Assembly (NCBI GenBank): GCA_024763055.1
Contig: JANTGH010000006.1
Coordinates: 1-53,701 of the forward strand
Direction: 5' to 3'
DNA: 53,701 bases
DNA from: Desulfobulbaceae bacterium
GTDB taxonomy: Bacteria > Desulfobacterota > Desulfobulbia > Desulfobulbales > Desulfobulbaceae
Part shown: positions 44,220 to 50,955 of the stretch, piece after piece
Position numbering within the stretch: the first letter of the stretch is position 1
How the letters are laid out: each line of letters opens with the position of its first letter
Translations under genes and position numbers: made by a program
The notes under the pieces: model-generated
What the model was told of the DNA's origin: nothing
Databases searched by the model: none
The model's input: the letters and a program-made list of their open reading frames with translations, nothing else

Positions 44220-46490
44220 TCACTTATCCGGGAACCGGAAAGTTGTCGTTTTATTTCTGCGTCCTATTCGTACGGCACCACCTTTGCTGAGACGGCCGAA
44301 GAGGATCTCCTCGGTGAGGACATCGCCGATTTCTTTTGTGATCAGCCGCCTGAGGGGACGGGCGCCGTAGGCCGGTTCGTAGCCATGGCCGGCAAGGTAC
44401 CTGCGGGCGGCAGGGGTCAGGGATATCTTCACTTTCTTTTCCGACAGTTGTTCCTGCAGCTCTCCAATCATCTTGTCCACGACTTTTTCTACAGTGTCCT
44501 GCTCAAGCGTGTTGAAGGTGATAATGGAATCCAGCCGGTTTCTGAATTCCGGCGAGAAGAGATTTTTCAGGGCCTTTTGTTCTTTGCCGGAACCGTCGCC
44601 TAAAAAACCAATGGCCCGCTCGCTCATCTCTCTTGCCCCGGCATTTGTCGTCATGATCAAAATAACATTACGAAAATCAGCACGCCTGCCGCTGTTATCG
44701 GTCAGGGTCGAATGATCCATTACCTGCAGGAGGATGGAAAAAACATCAGGATGTGCCTTTTCGATTTCATCAAGAAGCAGCACGCTGTAGGGGTGTTTAC
44801 GGATGGCATCGGTGAGCAGCCCGCCCTGCTCAAATCCGATGTAACCGGGAGGGGCACCGATCAGCCGGGCAACCGCATGCTTTTCCATGTACTCGCTCAT
44901 GTCAAAGCGTTCAAAGTTGATTTTCATGGCTGCGGCTAACTGCCTGGCTACCTCGGTTTTACCTACCCCAGTGGGGCCTGCAAAAAGAAACGAACCTGTG
45001 GGTGAGGTGGGATTGCCAAGGCCGGCCCTGGACCGTTTTACTGCCTTGACAAGACCATTTATGGCCGTATCCTGCCCAAAGATATAGGACTTCAGTACTC
45101 CGTCCAGATCACGCAGTTCCTCAAGATCGTTACCGTCCTTTGTTGTAACCGGTACCCTGGCCATTTTGGACACAATACGTTCAATATCCCGTACGCTCAC
45201 TGTTCGTCCGGTTTTTCCGTCAAGCCTGAACGAGGCGCCCACTTCATCCATCACGTCAATAGCCTTGTCCGGCAGAAAACGGTCGTTGAGATAGCGGCCG
45301 GACAGTTCAGCGGTCGCCCGGATGGCAGGTTTTGAATAACGTATCTGATGGTGTTTTTCATACCGGGACTGCAGGCCACGGAGAATGCCGCAGGTATCGT
45401 CAACGGAGGGTTCTTCTATGTCGATTTTCTGAAAGCGCCTGGACAGCGCCCGGTCTTTTTCTATGTGGTTTTTATACTCCTCATACGTGGTTGAGCCGAT
45501 ACAGCGAATAGTTCCAGCCTGGAGGGCTGGTTTAAGCAGGTTGGAGGCATCCATGGATCCGCCGCTGGTCGCACCGGCACCGACAATGGTGTGCATTTCA
45601 TCAATAAAGAGGATGGCGTTGTCATTTTTTTCAATGGCGCCGATGACATCCTTGAGGCGTTTTTCAAAATCACCCCGGTACTTGGTGCCGGCCACAAGAG
45701 TCCCCATGTCCAGCATGTAGATTTCGGTCCCGGCCAGCAGGTCGGGAACCAGCTTTTTGGGTTTGACGTGTATTTCTTTCCTGGCCAGCATATCCTCGTG
45801 GATGCGCAGAGCAAGTCCCTCGGCCATGGCTGTTTTACCGACTCCCGGCTCGCCAACCAGCAGGGGATTGTTTTTTTTGCGACGGCAAAGCACCTGCATC
45901 ATGCGTTGTAATTCCATATCGCGGCCGATAAGAGGATCAATAGTTCCCTCAGCAGCCCGAATGGAAAAATTCACCGTGAATTCTTTGAGAGGATCGTTGC
46001 CGGCTTTTTGCTTTTTTTGTCGCAGACGCGGCTGCACCTGCCGTAAAGGCTCTCTCTGCAGACTTTCAGGGATATGGTGGGAGATATACTCCACAACCTC
46101 TAACCTGCCGATCCCTTCAGTGCCTAAAAAGTAAACAGCATGGGACTCGGTTTCTGTAAAAATGGAGACCAGGACATCCCCGGTATCCACCTGTTTTTTA
46201 CCGCAGCTCTGGACGTGATTAACCGCCCGTTGCAGAACACGGTTGAAAGCTATGGTCTGGGCCGGTTCCGCCCCTTCATTTTTTAGTATCGGCAGTCCTC
46301 CGGAGAAAAAGCGTTCCAGTCGCTCTTTAAGGTTGTCGTTGCTGCCGCCACATTTATCTATAATATGACGGGCCAGATCATCATGGAGAAGTCCATACAG
46401 CATATGCTCCACGGTAACGTATTCGTGCCGGTGTGTTTTTGCTTCCTTTATCGCCTTGATAAGGGCCAACTCAAGTTCTCTGCTTAGCAT
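44220..46490 (-). CDS. clpA: ATP-dependent Clp protease ATP-binding subunit ClpA
   Basis: 756 residues, typical. An N-terminal double-Clp domain (VTVEHMLYGLLHD) that binds ClpS is followed by AAA+ module 1 (Walker A GEPGVGKT, Walker B AILFIDEMH) and module 2 (GPTGVGKT, LLLDEIEK). The IGF tripeptide in ERAIGFLGDG is the loop that docks on ClpP. It unfolds N-degron and ssrA-tagged proteins for ClpP. It lies 20 bp downstream of clpS. Confidence 0.96.
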   Translation of the reverse strand: MLSRELELALIKAIKEAKTHRHEYVTVEHMLYGLLHDDLARHIIDKCGGSNDNLKERLERFFSGGLPILKNEGAEPAQTIAFNRVLQRAVNHVQSCGKKQVDTGDVLVSIFTETESHAVYFLGTEGIGRLEVVEYISHHIPESLQREPLRQVQPRLRQKKQKAGNDPLKEFTVNFSIRAAEGTIDPLIGRDMELQRMMQVLCRRKKNNPLLVGEPGVGKTAMAEGLALRIHEDMLARKEIHVKPKKLVPDLLAGTEIYMLDMGTLVAGTKYRGDFEKRLKDVIGAIEKNDNAILFIDEMHTIVGAGATSGGSMDASNLLKPALQAGTIRCIGSTTYEEYKNHIEKDRALSRRFQKIDIEEPSVDDTCGILRGLQSRYEKHHQIRYSKPAIRATAELSGRYLNDRFLPDKAIDVMDEVGASFRLDGKTGRTVSVRDIERIVSKMARVPVTTKDGNDLEELRDLDGVLKSYIFGQDTAINGLVKAVKRSRAGLGNPTSPTGSFLFAGPTGVGKTEVARQLAAAMKINFERFDMSEYMEKHAVARLIGAPPGYIGFEQGGLLTDAIRKHPYSVLLLDEIEKAHPDVFSILLQVMDHSTLTDNSGRRADFRNVILIMTTNAGAREMSERAIGFLGDGSGKEQKALKNLFSPEFRNRLDSIITFNTLEQDTVEKVVDKMIGELQEQLSEKKVKISLTPAARRYLAGHGYEPAYGARPLRRLITKEIGDVLTEEILFGRLSKGGAVRIGRRNKTTTFRFPDK

Positions 46491-46510: not shown

Positions 46511-46828
46511 TCAGCTCACCTGTTCCAGAGAGCATTTCAGCGGATACTGATTTTTTCGGGCCATGCGATGAACAGACGCGACCTTGGTCTCTCCAATTTC
46601 GCGAGTGTAGACACCGGCAATGCCCAGTCCCTGGTGATGCACATTGAGCATGATTCGGGTTGCCTCATCAGTGTTTTTATGAAAAATTGTTTCTAAAATC
46701 ATGACGACAAAATCCATGGAGGTGTAGTCGTCATTATGCAGAAGCACTTTGTACAGATGTGGTTCCTGCAGGTTTTCCCTTTCACGGGTCAGGATGTCTT
46801 CCTGACTGGTTGTTTTATTTTTTGCCAT
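46511..46828 (-). CDS. clpS: Clp protease adaptor ClpS
   Basis: 105 residues. The adaptor core is intact: KVLLHNDDYTSMDFVVMIL, HHQGLGIAGVYTREIGETKV and the ending YPLKCSLEQV. It delivers N-end-rule substrates to ClpA through the HxD/M pocket residues visible in the first segment. It precedes clpA by 20 bp, the standard pairing, with a promoter at 46952-46979. Confidence 0.95.
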   Translation of the reverse strand: MAKNKTTSQEDILTRERENLQEPHLYKVLLHNDDYTSMDFVVMILETIFHKNTDEATRIMLNVHHQGLGIAGVYTREIGETKVASVHRMARKNQYPLKCSLEQVS

Positions 46829-47025: not shown

Positions 47026-48423
47026 TTATTGCAACTTTTTTGTCGCAGGCCTGGTTTTTTGATCGGCGGGTCCCAGCATGGTGATAAGCAGATGCTGCAC
47101 AATGGTGAGCGGTTCGAGCGGTGAGCTTTTCAGGCGTTGTTCAGTTTTCAGGACCTGCTGCAGCCAATGCTGCAGTTCGGCAAGTGAAAACAGGGACGCT
47201 GTTTTAAACTGCATGTAAATCGCATAGGGGTGGCCTTTGAGTTCCTGTTTCCAGTGTTCCTGTTCTTTCAGCTTTGGCAGGCATTGTCGTTGAAAAACAT
47301 TGGCCTGCATGCCGCGTCGGTATCCGTATTCCGGTTGTTCCTGCAGGGCCTTGAATAACAGCAGGGTTCGGACGTAATTTCTCAGGGTGGCGACAAGGGC
47401 AAGTGGGTGGATACCGTTTTCCAGCAGGCGGCCACTGATGATAAGGGACGGGCCAAGTTGCCGGTTGCCGATTGCGCCGGTAAGCTCAAACAGGGCTTCC
47501 TGCCTGGTCCGGCCGATTATGGCGTCAAGATCTTTCCGTTCGATCCTGTCACGCTCCCCTATGGACAGGCAGAGTTTTTCAGTTTCCATGACCACGGCCA
47601 CCGGATGGAATCCGACCCGGTCAAGCAACTGATCCATGCCCCCGGGGACCATGGTTTTTTTCATCTCGTTCAAGGTAGTCCTGATCAGCTCCACAAGCAC
47701 TGATTTTTGTACTTTCCGTGCCTTGCTGCCGGCACCCTTGTCAACACTGAGATCAACAACCACTTGCCGATCTTTCAGATATTTATAAAGCCGCTTTCGT
47801 TTGTCGACCTCCTCGGCAAGAAGGATCAGGATATTGGATGCCGGGATACCTACTTCCAGGGTTTCCTGCAGCAGGGCGGCCGGATCTGCAGCTGTTGTCG
47901 TCGTTGTTGGTTTTGAAGTATTTCCAGTCTCCATCAGCAGGCGAGTTGTCCAGGAAAGATCACCACCGGGATGGGGAAAATCAAAGCATTTTTTCCATTC
48001 ATGGTTGCCCATCCTTGCCGGATCACTGTCCGGGTTTTCCGGATCCAGGCCACCGGCGGCGAGCATAGCACGAAGGTGGCGGGCAGCGGTCTCGGTTTTT
48101 TTCGCATCTTTTGCCGTAAGGATTCGTTTCCATAGAGATTTGGCCACTTGTTTAGAATAAAACAGACGGGTATCGCTGATCCGGTATATCTGACGCCCCG
48201 GCAATAGACTGAAACTGCGAAGCCGTGAAATCGTTTTTGCGGGTTCTTCCTCCTCTCCATCAAGAGCATGGACGGTACCACCACCGGATAGCAGGGATTT
48301 TTCAAGTCGTCCGGCCGTCTGCCGGCAGAGAAATCTATCCCCGATAAGTAGATAGGCGCAGGATGGATTTTGGTCGGCATCGGCCAGAAAACCGGATAGT
48401 TTTTCCCTGGTATAAACAGGCAT
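47026..48423 (-). CDS. holA: DNA polymerase III delta subunit, enlarged
   Basis: 465 residues against a usual 330-345. The N-terminal part (SCAYLLIGDRFLCRQTAGRLE, LPGRQIYRISD) and the C-terminal collar domain (GRLLENGIHPLALVATLRNYVRTLLLFKAL) match HolA, the clamp-loader subunit that opens the beta clamp. Extra sequence of about 100 residues at roughly 95-190 (including a TTTTTT run) separates the first subdomain from the rest. It lies 3 bp downstream of the large unknown gene, so the two are cotranscribed. Confidence 0.85.
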   Translation of the reverse strand: MPVYTREKLSGFLADADQNPSCAYLLIGDRFLCRQTAGRLEKSLLSGGGTVHALDGEEEEPAKTISRLRSFSLLPGRQIYRISDTRLFYSKQVAKSLWKRILTAKDAKKTETAARHLRAMLAAGGLDPENPDSDPARMGNHEWKKCFDFPHPGGDLSWTTRLLMETGNTSKPTTTTTAADPAALLQETLEVGIPASNILILLAEEVDKRKRLYKYLKDRQVVVDLSVDKGAGSKARKVQKSVLVELIRTTLNEMKKTMVPGGMDQLLDRVGFHPVAVVMETEKLCLSIGERDRIERKDLDAIIGRTRQEALFELTGAIGNRQLGPSLIISGRLLENGIHPLALVATLRNYVRTLLLFKALQEQPEYGYRRGMQANVFQRQCLPKLKEQEHWKQELKGHPYAIYMQFKTASLFSLAELQHWLQQVLKTEQRLKSSPLEPLTIVQHLLITMLGPADQKTRPATKKLQ

Positions 48424-48426
48424 GCT

Positions 48427-50955
48427 TCAGTTCTCTTCCGGGCAAAAGGTATCTATGATCATACAGTCGAAATCCTGTTCCAGCTCTTCACCTTTTTTGT
48501 CCTCGTCGATTATTTTATGTAAAATTGCGGTCAGTGATCCCGGCTGCAGGTAGTCCTGGCCGCGGCCCCCCTTAAAGATAAAAGAGAGATGGTCCTCTAC
48601 ACCTTTCCAGGAGATGTTTGCGGGATTTTTAGCAATTATTTCAAAAAAATTTTTATTGTATGGATCATTGATCATCGCCATACCGGTGCCGATGGTGGCA
48701 AGAATGTCAATATGCCCCCGGAACAGTCGGGTCAACCTTGTGTAGGCCTTTACGCCTCCACAGGAACCCAGGCTGAGAAATCGTTGTTTGAAATCAATGT
48801 CCGCGTCGGTTATGGCGTGTTCACGCAGTGATTTGACAAGGGGTTCGGTTATTTGTTCCGATCGCCAGTAGCTGTGCCCCCGCTGGGCGAACATCTCATC
48901 ACCTCCCTTGAGAAAACGCTCAAGAAGGCGTTGCTGGGTTTTTTCATTAACGTACACATGCTGGCTATGTCGAATGGTCAGCCCGCCAAGCTGTCTGGTA
49001 AACTCGACGGCAAAATGTTTATGCCGCATGGCGGAGAACAATCGCGGCATCCCGGTAGCCGGGTTTTTTCGGGCCTCATGGATTATTTGTTTAAATGCCT
49101 GCCGTTTTCCGGAATTCAGGGGCGCAAAGGTGTACTGTTCGGAAAGATCAAGTCGATAGCCGCTTCGCTGCAGGGTTCGTGCATTTGAGCAAAAGGATTT
49201 ACGACCGTCATCATCGGGATGAAAGACTGATATTGATCCCAGTCTGCCGTCTTCTTTCCACTTGGCAAAGGGTGTATGCTGGTATTTGCTCAGGTCAATA
49301 GCACCTCTGCGGATAATAAGACGGGTGATGGCGACCCGGTCCTTACTGCTGAGAAGCTCGGGGTATTCCTGCATGTAATACTGGAGAATAACACTGATCA
49401 GGCGAGAAAAGGTGGATGTGTCCCTGTCCGCCTCCTGAGTCATCTTGTCGATCAGATAAGTGCGGGCATCAGGTTGCAGTACCTTGAGGAGGTGGACAAA
49501 GGTTGCTGAAAACAGGAGAATGGAGTCTTCATTTTTAAAGGCGGACGCCGCGACCAGCTTGAGAATTTCCTTTTGCCGGGCCTCATCTTCGGGGAAAAAG
49601 GTGGTGAGCTTGCCCTTCTGGGCAAGACTGACAATGAAACTTGAAACCAGCAGGTTATCCGGATCAATGGCTTGGACAAATGCCAGCAGATCGCCATGGT
49701 GATTTTCGATCATTCGTTTTTTCAGCACAGGAACCAGGATATCACGGAAGGAGGAGTCATAGAGTTCGCTGCCCTGGGAAAGCAGGGCATATATATTGGC
49801 TGAACTTAAATCGCGGGCTGTTTGTATCCGGTCGGCAGCAGTCGCCCTGCGTAAGACGGAGATCATGGTTACCCTGTTACCGGCAGCCATGGCGGGATAA
49901 AACTGTCTATTGTAGGCAAACTGAACCTGACGGGAGAGTTTTTGAAATCGCAGGTAAAGCTGTTTTTTGCTCTGTCGTCTCAGTTCCACTTCGGATACTT
50001 CAAAACCAAATCGGTTGGTGATTGCATGCAGGTTATTTATTTTCCAGATCAACTCTTCGCCGCCATCGTAAAAGGCCTGTAAAAGCGCTTTCTTATGCTC
50101 ATCATCCTGGCGGTAATATTGGGCCTCCTGAACCATGGGCGGGAGTGCGAAATACCGGACAATCCACAGCCAGCCGTCAATACGGGTCATGTTTTTTTGT
50201 TTAAACAGATTGTGGGCGTTCCAGGCATCCTCCTGGCGCAGTTGTTTAAGCAGGGGCAGGGTATCAAACATAGTTTCAGTTGTCATGTCATGGATTCGTG
50301 CATAACTGTCCGCTGCACGGGCCTGATGGTCGATGAGTCGGGCCAGGCTTATCATGCCGTCCAGCGCCTTAACCCCATCGATATCCTGGATGGTTATCAG
50401 GCCCTGCACCGCTCTCTTGTTGACATCCTTGAGACCGTTGAGCAACGGAATGGTTTTTAAAGAATGTCGCGGAGAAATATCGGGTAATTCCAAATAACTG
50501 CGAAATGCCCGTCCGGTTTCATAACTGAGATCGGCAAGTTGCGGCAGGGCCTGCAGGGCCAGGGGAAGATCCACCCCGTCCAGATCACTCCATTCTTCAA
50601 AGGCAAGCACCTGTTCAAAAGAAAGATGCGTTTTGAGCAGGACCCTCCAGGACTGCATGCTTGTCGCAAAGGTAATTCCCGGCAGGAGGCAGATTTTACG
50701 AAATATTCTCTGGGAGTTATAATCAAGGCCTCGAATAATTTCCCGGCCGTAATCAAACTGATCCCGGGTCAGACAGGGAATGGAACCATACAGAGCAAGT
50801 GTCTTGCGGGAACTGGCATCGGTTAATGCATATCGTTTACCTGCTGCCGGAGTCAGAAAAATTGCGGACAGCAGAAGTAGGATACAACCGATGAAGATAT
50901 ATTTGCGGGTTTGTCCTGCCCGTTTTATGGTAGCGTTTTTTTGTGGAGTAGTCAT
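48427..50955 (-). CDS. Large membrane-anchored protein with putative caspase-like His/Cys dyad
   Basis: 842 residues from ATG 50955 (a longer frame to 51078 would cross the divergent gene). A basic N-terminus and one hydrophobic helix (about 19-37) suggest an inner-membrane anchor or uncleaved signal with the bulk in the periplasm. The next 560 residues are mainly helical and not recognised. Near the C-terminus H694 (FAQRGHSYW) and C732 (LSLGSCGG), 38 residues apart and each after a hydrophobic strand, resemble the catalytic dyad of clan CD (caspase/gingipain-fold) peptidases, followed by a strand DILATIGTGMAM. I assign no substrate. It is 3 bp upstream of holA and divergent from the EamA gene. 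Confidence 0.7.
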   Translation of the reverse strand: MTTPQKNATIKRAGQTRKYIFIGCILLLLSAIFLTPAAGKRYALTDASSRKTLALYGSIPCLTRDQFDYGREIIRGLDYNSQRIFRKICLLPGITFATSMQSWRVLLKTHLSFEQVLAFEEWSDLDGVDLPLALQALPQLADLSYETGRAFRSYLELPDISPRHSLKTIPLLNGLKDVNKRAVQGLITIQDIDGVKALDGMISLARLIDHQARAADSYARIHDMTTETMFDTLPLLKQLRQEDAWNAHNLFKQKNMTRIDGWLWIVRYFALPPMVQEAQYYRQDDEHKKALLQAFYDGGEELIWKINNLHAITNRFGFEVSEVELRRQSKKQLYLRFQKLSRQVQFAYNRQFYPAMAAGNRVTMISVLRRATAADRIQTARDLSSANIYALLSQGSELYDSSFRDILVPVLKKRMIENHHGDLLAFVQAIDPDNLLVSSFIVSLAQKGKLTTFFPEDEARQKEILKLVAASAFKNEDSILLFSATFVHLLKVLQPDARTYLIDKMTQEADRDTSTFSRLISVILQYYMQEYPELLSSKDRVAITRLIIRRGAIDLSKYQHTPFAKWKEDGRLGSISVFHPDDDGRKSFCSNARTLQRSGYRLDLSEQYTFAPLNSGKRQAFKQIIHEARKNPATGMPRLFSAMRHKHFAVEFTRQLGGLTIRHSQHVYVNEKTQQRLLERFLKGGDEMFAQRGHSYWRSEQITEPLVKSLREHAITDADIDFKQRFLSLGSCGGVKAYTRLTRLFRGHIDILATIGTGMAMINDPYNKNFFEIIAKNPANISWKGVEDHLSFIFKGGRGQDYLQPGSLTAILHKIIDEDKKGEELEQDFDCMIIDTFCPEEN

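Follow-up and report, generated by a model that had tools for sequence, protein, structure and literature searches.

A predicted exported caspase-like His-Cys protein family of the Desulfobulbales, usually encoded next to holA

The window, a stretch of 53,701 nucleotides from the genome of a Desulfobulbaceae bacterium, carries on its minus strand an intact open reading frame (48427-50955, as judged from its translation) for a protein of 842 residues, whose stop codon lies 3 bp before the ATG of holA, exactly as the original prediction had it, with clpS and clpA coming next. A TIGR01128 match of 126.8 bits, well over the cut-off of 80, confirms the identity of holA. The features of the locus are the following:

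48427..50955, minus strand: coding sequence of the predicted exported His-Cys protein, 842 residues (translation; homologs in 130 of 243 Desulfobulbales genomes)
50842..50955, minus strand: predicted Sec-type signal peptide, about residues 1-38 (family-wide hydrophobic core, with an AxA-type site behind the core in half)
49279..50817, minus strand: all-helical region, residues 47-559 (AlphaFold secondary structure, pLDDT mostly 85-94)
48445..49269, minus strand: C-terminal alpha/beta domain, predicted to be caspase-like, residues 563-837 (domain model and structure comparison)
49204..49215, minus strand: acidic DDDG motif after strand b1, residues 581-584, candidate S1-pocket acid
48874..48876, minus strand: H694, predicted catalytic base, in RGHSYW just past strand b3 (invariant in 66/66)
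48760..48762, minus strand: C732, predicted nucleophile, in LGSCGG at the end of strand b4 (invariant in 66/66, the only invariant Cys)
47026..48423, minus strand: holA, DNA polymerase III delta, downstream operon partner by position (TIGR01128; adjacent in 74/86 loci)
46511..46828, minus strand: clpS, in the conserved holA-clpS-clpA block (PF02617; synteny)
44220..46490, minus strand: clpA, in the same conserved block (Clp_N and AAA domains; synteny)

Across the family holA is found immediately downstream of the gene, often overlapping it, in 74 of the 86 loci with enough sequence. Where a family lacks the gene, and likewise in cable bacteria, the place upstream of holA is taken by other genes, and ClpS- and/or ClpA-like genes usually still come after holA; the gene therefore joined an older holA-clpS-clpA block. 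The link to holA would then represent an insertion into this pre-existing block and not a function in replication. The view that the coupling reflects operon economy is thus upheld, in that it is mostly positional and the block stands without the gene elsewhere in the order; a replication link through holA was rejected as the main reading, because the holA of cable bacteria and of other Desulfobulbales families stands without it.

There are also loci where the gene has other partners. Three of the Electronema type show it 11-59 bp after rodA, at an mreC-mreD-pbp2-rodA cluster away from holA; the cluster was checked with Pfam on one locus, whose mreD candidate gave no match. In five loci of family f3 the gene is convergent with a conserved gene for an exported L,D-transpeptidase (YkuD), the domain being confirmed in three of these, with the other two 59-60% identical:

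Electronema-type loci linked to rodA: L074:380-7415, L073:333-7361, L068:300-7385
YkuD genes of the f3 loci: L159:6514-7305, L161:6820-7614, L162:6564-7343, L165:6882-7730, L168:3626-4483

These cell-wall neighbours away from holA are a hint pointing to the cell wall. As a separate observation, some f12 loci have a divergent upstream gene with a shared N-terminal motif (CWCNSGKKYKKCH-like; L154:6875-7873, L155:1186-2196, L156:3004-4011), and the L154 copy encodes a peptidase M24 of the methionine aminopeptidase type with a SEC-C motif.

Whole-genome searches, which did not depend on the QRGHSYWR motif, recovered homologs in 37 of 57 near genomes and, in the 243 genomes of the order, in members spread over three families, while in a sample of 297 genomes from the phylum homologs were found only inside Desulfobulbales. 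Named relatives come from Desulfobulbus, Desulfocapsa, Desulfofustis, Desulfogranum and the cable bacteria Electrothrix and Electronema; in the scan of named genomes QRGHSYWR was one of two search patterns, so that the conservation counts from that scan are partly biased. The gene is almost always single-copy, as it is in the source genome, and double matches are mostly complementary gene pieces on split contigs. In the tree f1 and f3 lie apart, with f12 members on several branches outside them, and this grouping by family is consistent with vertical inheritance. No relative was found on viral contigs or plasmids; a mobile or viral origin was rejected on this ground and on that of the grouping by family in the tree. 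Searches of Pfam, NCBIfam, PADLOC and PDB sequences, run singly and with alignments, assigned no family, and profile searches of 46 members (E up to 1 at full length and up to 10 for the domain) gave no match to PF00656, PF12770, PF03415 or PF01364. We found no literature pairing caspases with Desulfobulbaceae or cable bacteria. This is an undescribed, single-copy, vertically inherited family of the Desulfobulbales.

A strong hydrophobic core was seen in 99 of 101 distinct N-termini in a simple scan (not SignalP), and a strict AxA site stands close behind the core in half of the members (e.g. ARA followed by RFR, or ASA followed by RFR), while few have a lipobox. The window's own copy has a weaker site, TPAAGK, and residues 1-15 and 33-43 of its full model are of low confidence. 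For the N-terminal membrane helix proposed earlier, a Sec signal peptide is accordingly a better fit to the core and the AxA sites than a lasting anchor would be; once the leader is removed, the protein is probably either secreted or present in soluble form in the periplasm, as judged from these N-termini.

The translated frame contains both residues on which the original prediction was built, H694 within RGHSYW and, 38 residues further on, C732 within LGSCGG. They are invariant in all 66 aligned homologs, down to about 35% identity, and rank seventh and fifth, respectively, in conservation among the 842 columns; no complete homolog lacks either of them, and the most diverged members keep the dyad. 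C732 is the sole invariant one among the seven cysteines of the protein in the 66 aligned members, and of its 22 histidines only H694 and H310 do not vary. The flanking G693, S695 and G733 are likewise present in 66/66, while residue 731, directly before C732, is Ser in 59 and Ala in 7 of the 66 and nothing else, giving a family motif of the form G-H-S...[SA]-C-G-G. Clan CD peptidases have a Gly next to the catalytic His, usually as H-G, with Gly following; here the next residue is Ser in every member, so that the H-G form is absent, and the His is flanked by the invariant glycine, G693, that precedes it. As with the Ser or Ala at position 731, a small residue precedes the catalytic Cys in clan CD, with Ala-Cys in C11 and others. 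Beyond the dyad, D581, D583 and G584 are conserved in 65/65 alignment rows with letters, and N763 and, for the most part, Y766-N767 are conserved after the last parallel strand. Several further positions were noted in the same alignment. H310 (window 50026-50028), within an NNLH stretch of the helical region, could reach the active site or serve structure. A disulfide between C61 and C89 was rejected, as the two cysteines vary independently. At residues 756-760 (window 48676-48690), beyond the last parallel strand, f3 members read GSLGAGKT, an apparent Walker A motif, and most others GTG[K/M/L]A; the resemblance is probably a coincidence, and a P-loop NTPase reading of it was rejected, Lys being present in only 30/66.

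The AlphaFold model of the full protein (pLDDT 85.5) is all-helical over residues 47-559, in agreement with the long helical region first predicted, and alpha/beta thereafter; the domain modelled by itself reached a pLDDT of 89.8 and a pTM of 0.89. The domain opens with b1 (571-578), a1 (582-597) and b2 (601-604), followed by an insert of two helices and a hairpin, after which come a2 (671-684), b3 (688-692), a3, b4 (725-732), a4, b5 (749-754) and a5. In both models H694 lies two residues past strand 688-692 and C732 is the last residue of strand 725-732, so that the predicted placement of the dyad at the ends of strands is reproduced, and the structure-prediction check proposed at the outset assigns them to two consecutive strands, one residue at each strand end, within one alpha/beta domain. 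The caspase-haemoglobinase fold has a sheet order of 2-1-3-4 with helices a1-a3. The clan CD dyad is located at the C-terminal ends of Hb3 (His) and Hb4 (Cys) (PMC4357240). The succession of strands and helices predicted along the chain is as described for clan CD, and the strands bearing the His and Cys would fit b3 and b4.

Among the matches listed by VIA-align 2 for the domain were SAVED-CHAT (8tl0; Z 8.7, 162 residues aligned, rmsd 3.7), procaspase-3 (Z 7.9, 171, 4.4), caspase-8 (Z 7.4, 170, 4.4), caspase-7 (Z 7.3, 171, 4.6), gingipain R (Z 7.2, 176, 4.2) and a C11 peptidase (Z 7.1, 181, 5.3), and for the full model separase (Z 7.8 and 7.5, 170-177 aligned, rmsd 4.2-4.5) and C11 (Z 6.6, 183, 5.4). 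For the caspase-haemoglobinase fold, the clan CD Z-scores of the domain run from 7.1 to 8.7, and those of domain and full model are tied with the scores of other doubly wound folds, namely receptor ligand-binding and Ras-like folds, in the same lists; Foldseek gave no match below E 0.001 with either model, so that clan CD folds came up in the VIA-align 2 comparison alone. These ties, along with the lack of a profile link to any peptidase family, are what favour the reading of the C-terminal domain as another Rossmann-like fold, of the periplasmic-binding-protein or GTPase-like kind, in which the His and Cys would serve binding, structure or a non-peptidase reaction. We regard this as unlikely, since the clan CD matches span five separate families, with alignments (162-183 residues) that are the longest or close to it, there is no conserved GTP-binding motif (Lys stands at position 759 of the GxG[K/M/L] loop in only 30/66), and a sole invariant Cys after one strand with an invariant His after the preceding strand would be unexpected in a binding fold. 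Counted from the start of each alignment, the catalytic His of gingipain R, of caspase-3 and of caspase-7 comes exactly 52 residues earlier than the His of the model (44 for caspase-8). This offset of 52 roughly equals the length of the insert, made of helices and a hairpin, that separates b2 from a2, which suggests indirectly that the dyads coincide. What was claimed of a clan CD-type dyad therefore stands as regards the order of His before Cys on successive strands, and clan CD membership is likely on the basis of the models, with Z-scores that are shared by other folds.

The G-S-C-G-G segment directly after a strand and before a helix also recalls the nucleophile elbow of class I glutamine amidotransferases, DJ-1 or alpha/beta-hydrolases, where the partner of C732 would be the strongly conserved H813 and not H694. 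H813, however, is Tyr in 9/66 members, including f3 members with intact dyads, whereas H694 never varies, and we consider an elbow of this type very improbable; glutamine-amidotransferase-like or hydrolase folds were absent from the 50 domain matches listed, an absence that carries no evidential weight. Hardly more probable is a pseudo-enzyme or scaffold, in which a caspase-like domain would no longer be catalytic and would work through binding: the catalytic residues of pseudo-enzymes decay, yet all complete homologs seen have kept the dyad. Some prokaryotic caspase homologs do lack the dyad, an intact one being reported for 84% of putative bacterial metacaspases (PMC3501461).

The domain was also compared by local hhalign with alignments for C14, CHAT, C11 and C25 that had been assembled from loci within the order or the phylum, and nothing significant emerged; the C14 (E 0.26 over 29 columns) and C25 (E 0.15 over 20 columns) values mean little, and both weak alignments fall after the last parallel strand. 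The suggested comparison with these four families thus came out divided, with structural matches to CHAT, caspases, C11 and gingipain on one side and no profile link to C14, C11, C25 or CHAT on the other, and going by its sequence the family should not be filed under any of them.

Taken together, we consider it probable that the protein is an exported, periplasmic, site-specific cysteine protease of the caspase type, with the fold as modelled, and with its helical region presumably gating the C-terminal domain. Sec would export the protein and signal peptidase I would remove the leader, as the family-wide signal peptides suggest. The helical region of about 510 residues would carry, and probably gate, the predicted caspase-like domain, where H694 would activate C732 as the nucleophile. 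A basic P1 residue is probably recognised by the invariant DDDG loop that follows the first strand, a preference proposed because gingipain R binds P1 through an Asp, and the enzyme would cut a protein of the periplasm or envelope in a limited, site-specific manner. More tentatively, and with somewhat greater reserve than belief, we propose a new clan CD family, exported and separase-like, with a helical gate and a variant dyad, which would belong, as a single-copy gene, to the core set of Desulfobulbaceae, Desulfocapsaceae and one further related family, with cable bacteria among the carriers, and would site-specifically cleave a protein of the envelope or of cell-wall elongation.

Bacterial caspase-type proteases are mostly scattered accessory genes. 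In the present case the gene appears to belong to the core set and to be passed on vertically in several families of an order of sulfur bacteria with environmental importance, the filamentous cable bacteria among them, and we found no description in the literature of an envelope enzyme of this kind in these organisms. If it is active, clan CD would gain a family, and a step of regulated envelope proteolysis would be indicated for these organisms.

Several known systems share parts of this organization. The SAVED-CHAT filament is the best structural match of the domain (8tl0, Z 8.7), and the helical plus caspase-like layout recalls TPR-CHAT; unlike CHAT (PF12770), the family has neither a CHAT profile nor an hhalign match, is not part of a defence locus, is predicted to be exported and has H-S in place of H-G. 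Caspases, metacaspases and orthocaspases (C14, PF00656) likewise have His and then Cys at successive strand ends, with Z 7.3-7.9 for caspase-3, -7 and -8, but the family protein has no PF00656 match and a genuine C14 protein is encoded elsewhere in the same genome. The latter, on another contig (Peptidase_C14 L187, G000:C61:7752-8546), stands beside a Peptidase_C25 gene (L235, G000:C61:8971-9948), both on the minus strand and with some 400 bp between their domains. Gingipain (C25) and clostripain-like (C11) enzymes are exported bacterial members of clan CD (Z 7.2 and 7.1), and the acidic loop of the family could similarly select a basic P1; they differ in that the family gives no PF01364 or PF03415 match and has a large N-terminal helical region instead. 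The sporulation protease YabG offers the case of a clan CD candidate without detectable sequence similarity to other members (PMC12445089); unlike the present family, it is spore-specific and belongs to Firmicutes. Finally, separase (MEROPS C50), which in terms of fold only is the clan CD protein that the full model matches best (Z 7.8, 170 aligned), resembles the modelled protein in that a caspase-like domain with His and Cys comes at the C-terminus after a long helical region, whereas it is eukaryotic, intracellular and much larger, and the family protein is exported and has no PDB sequence match. The family is absent from the family databases searched, exported, and separase-like in its layout.
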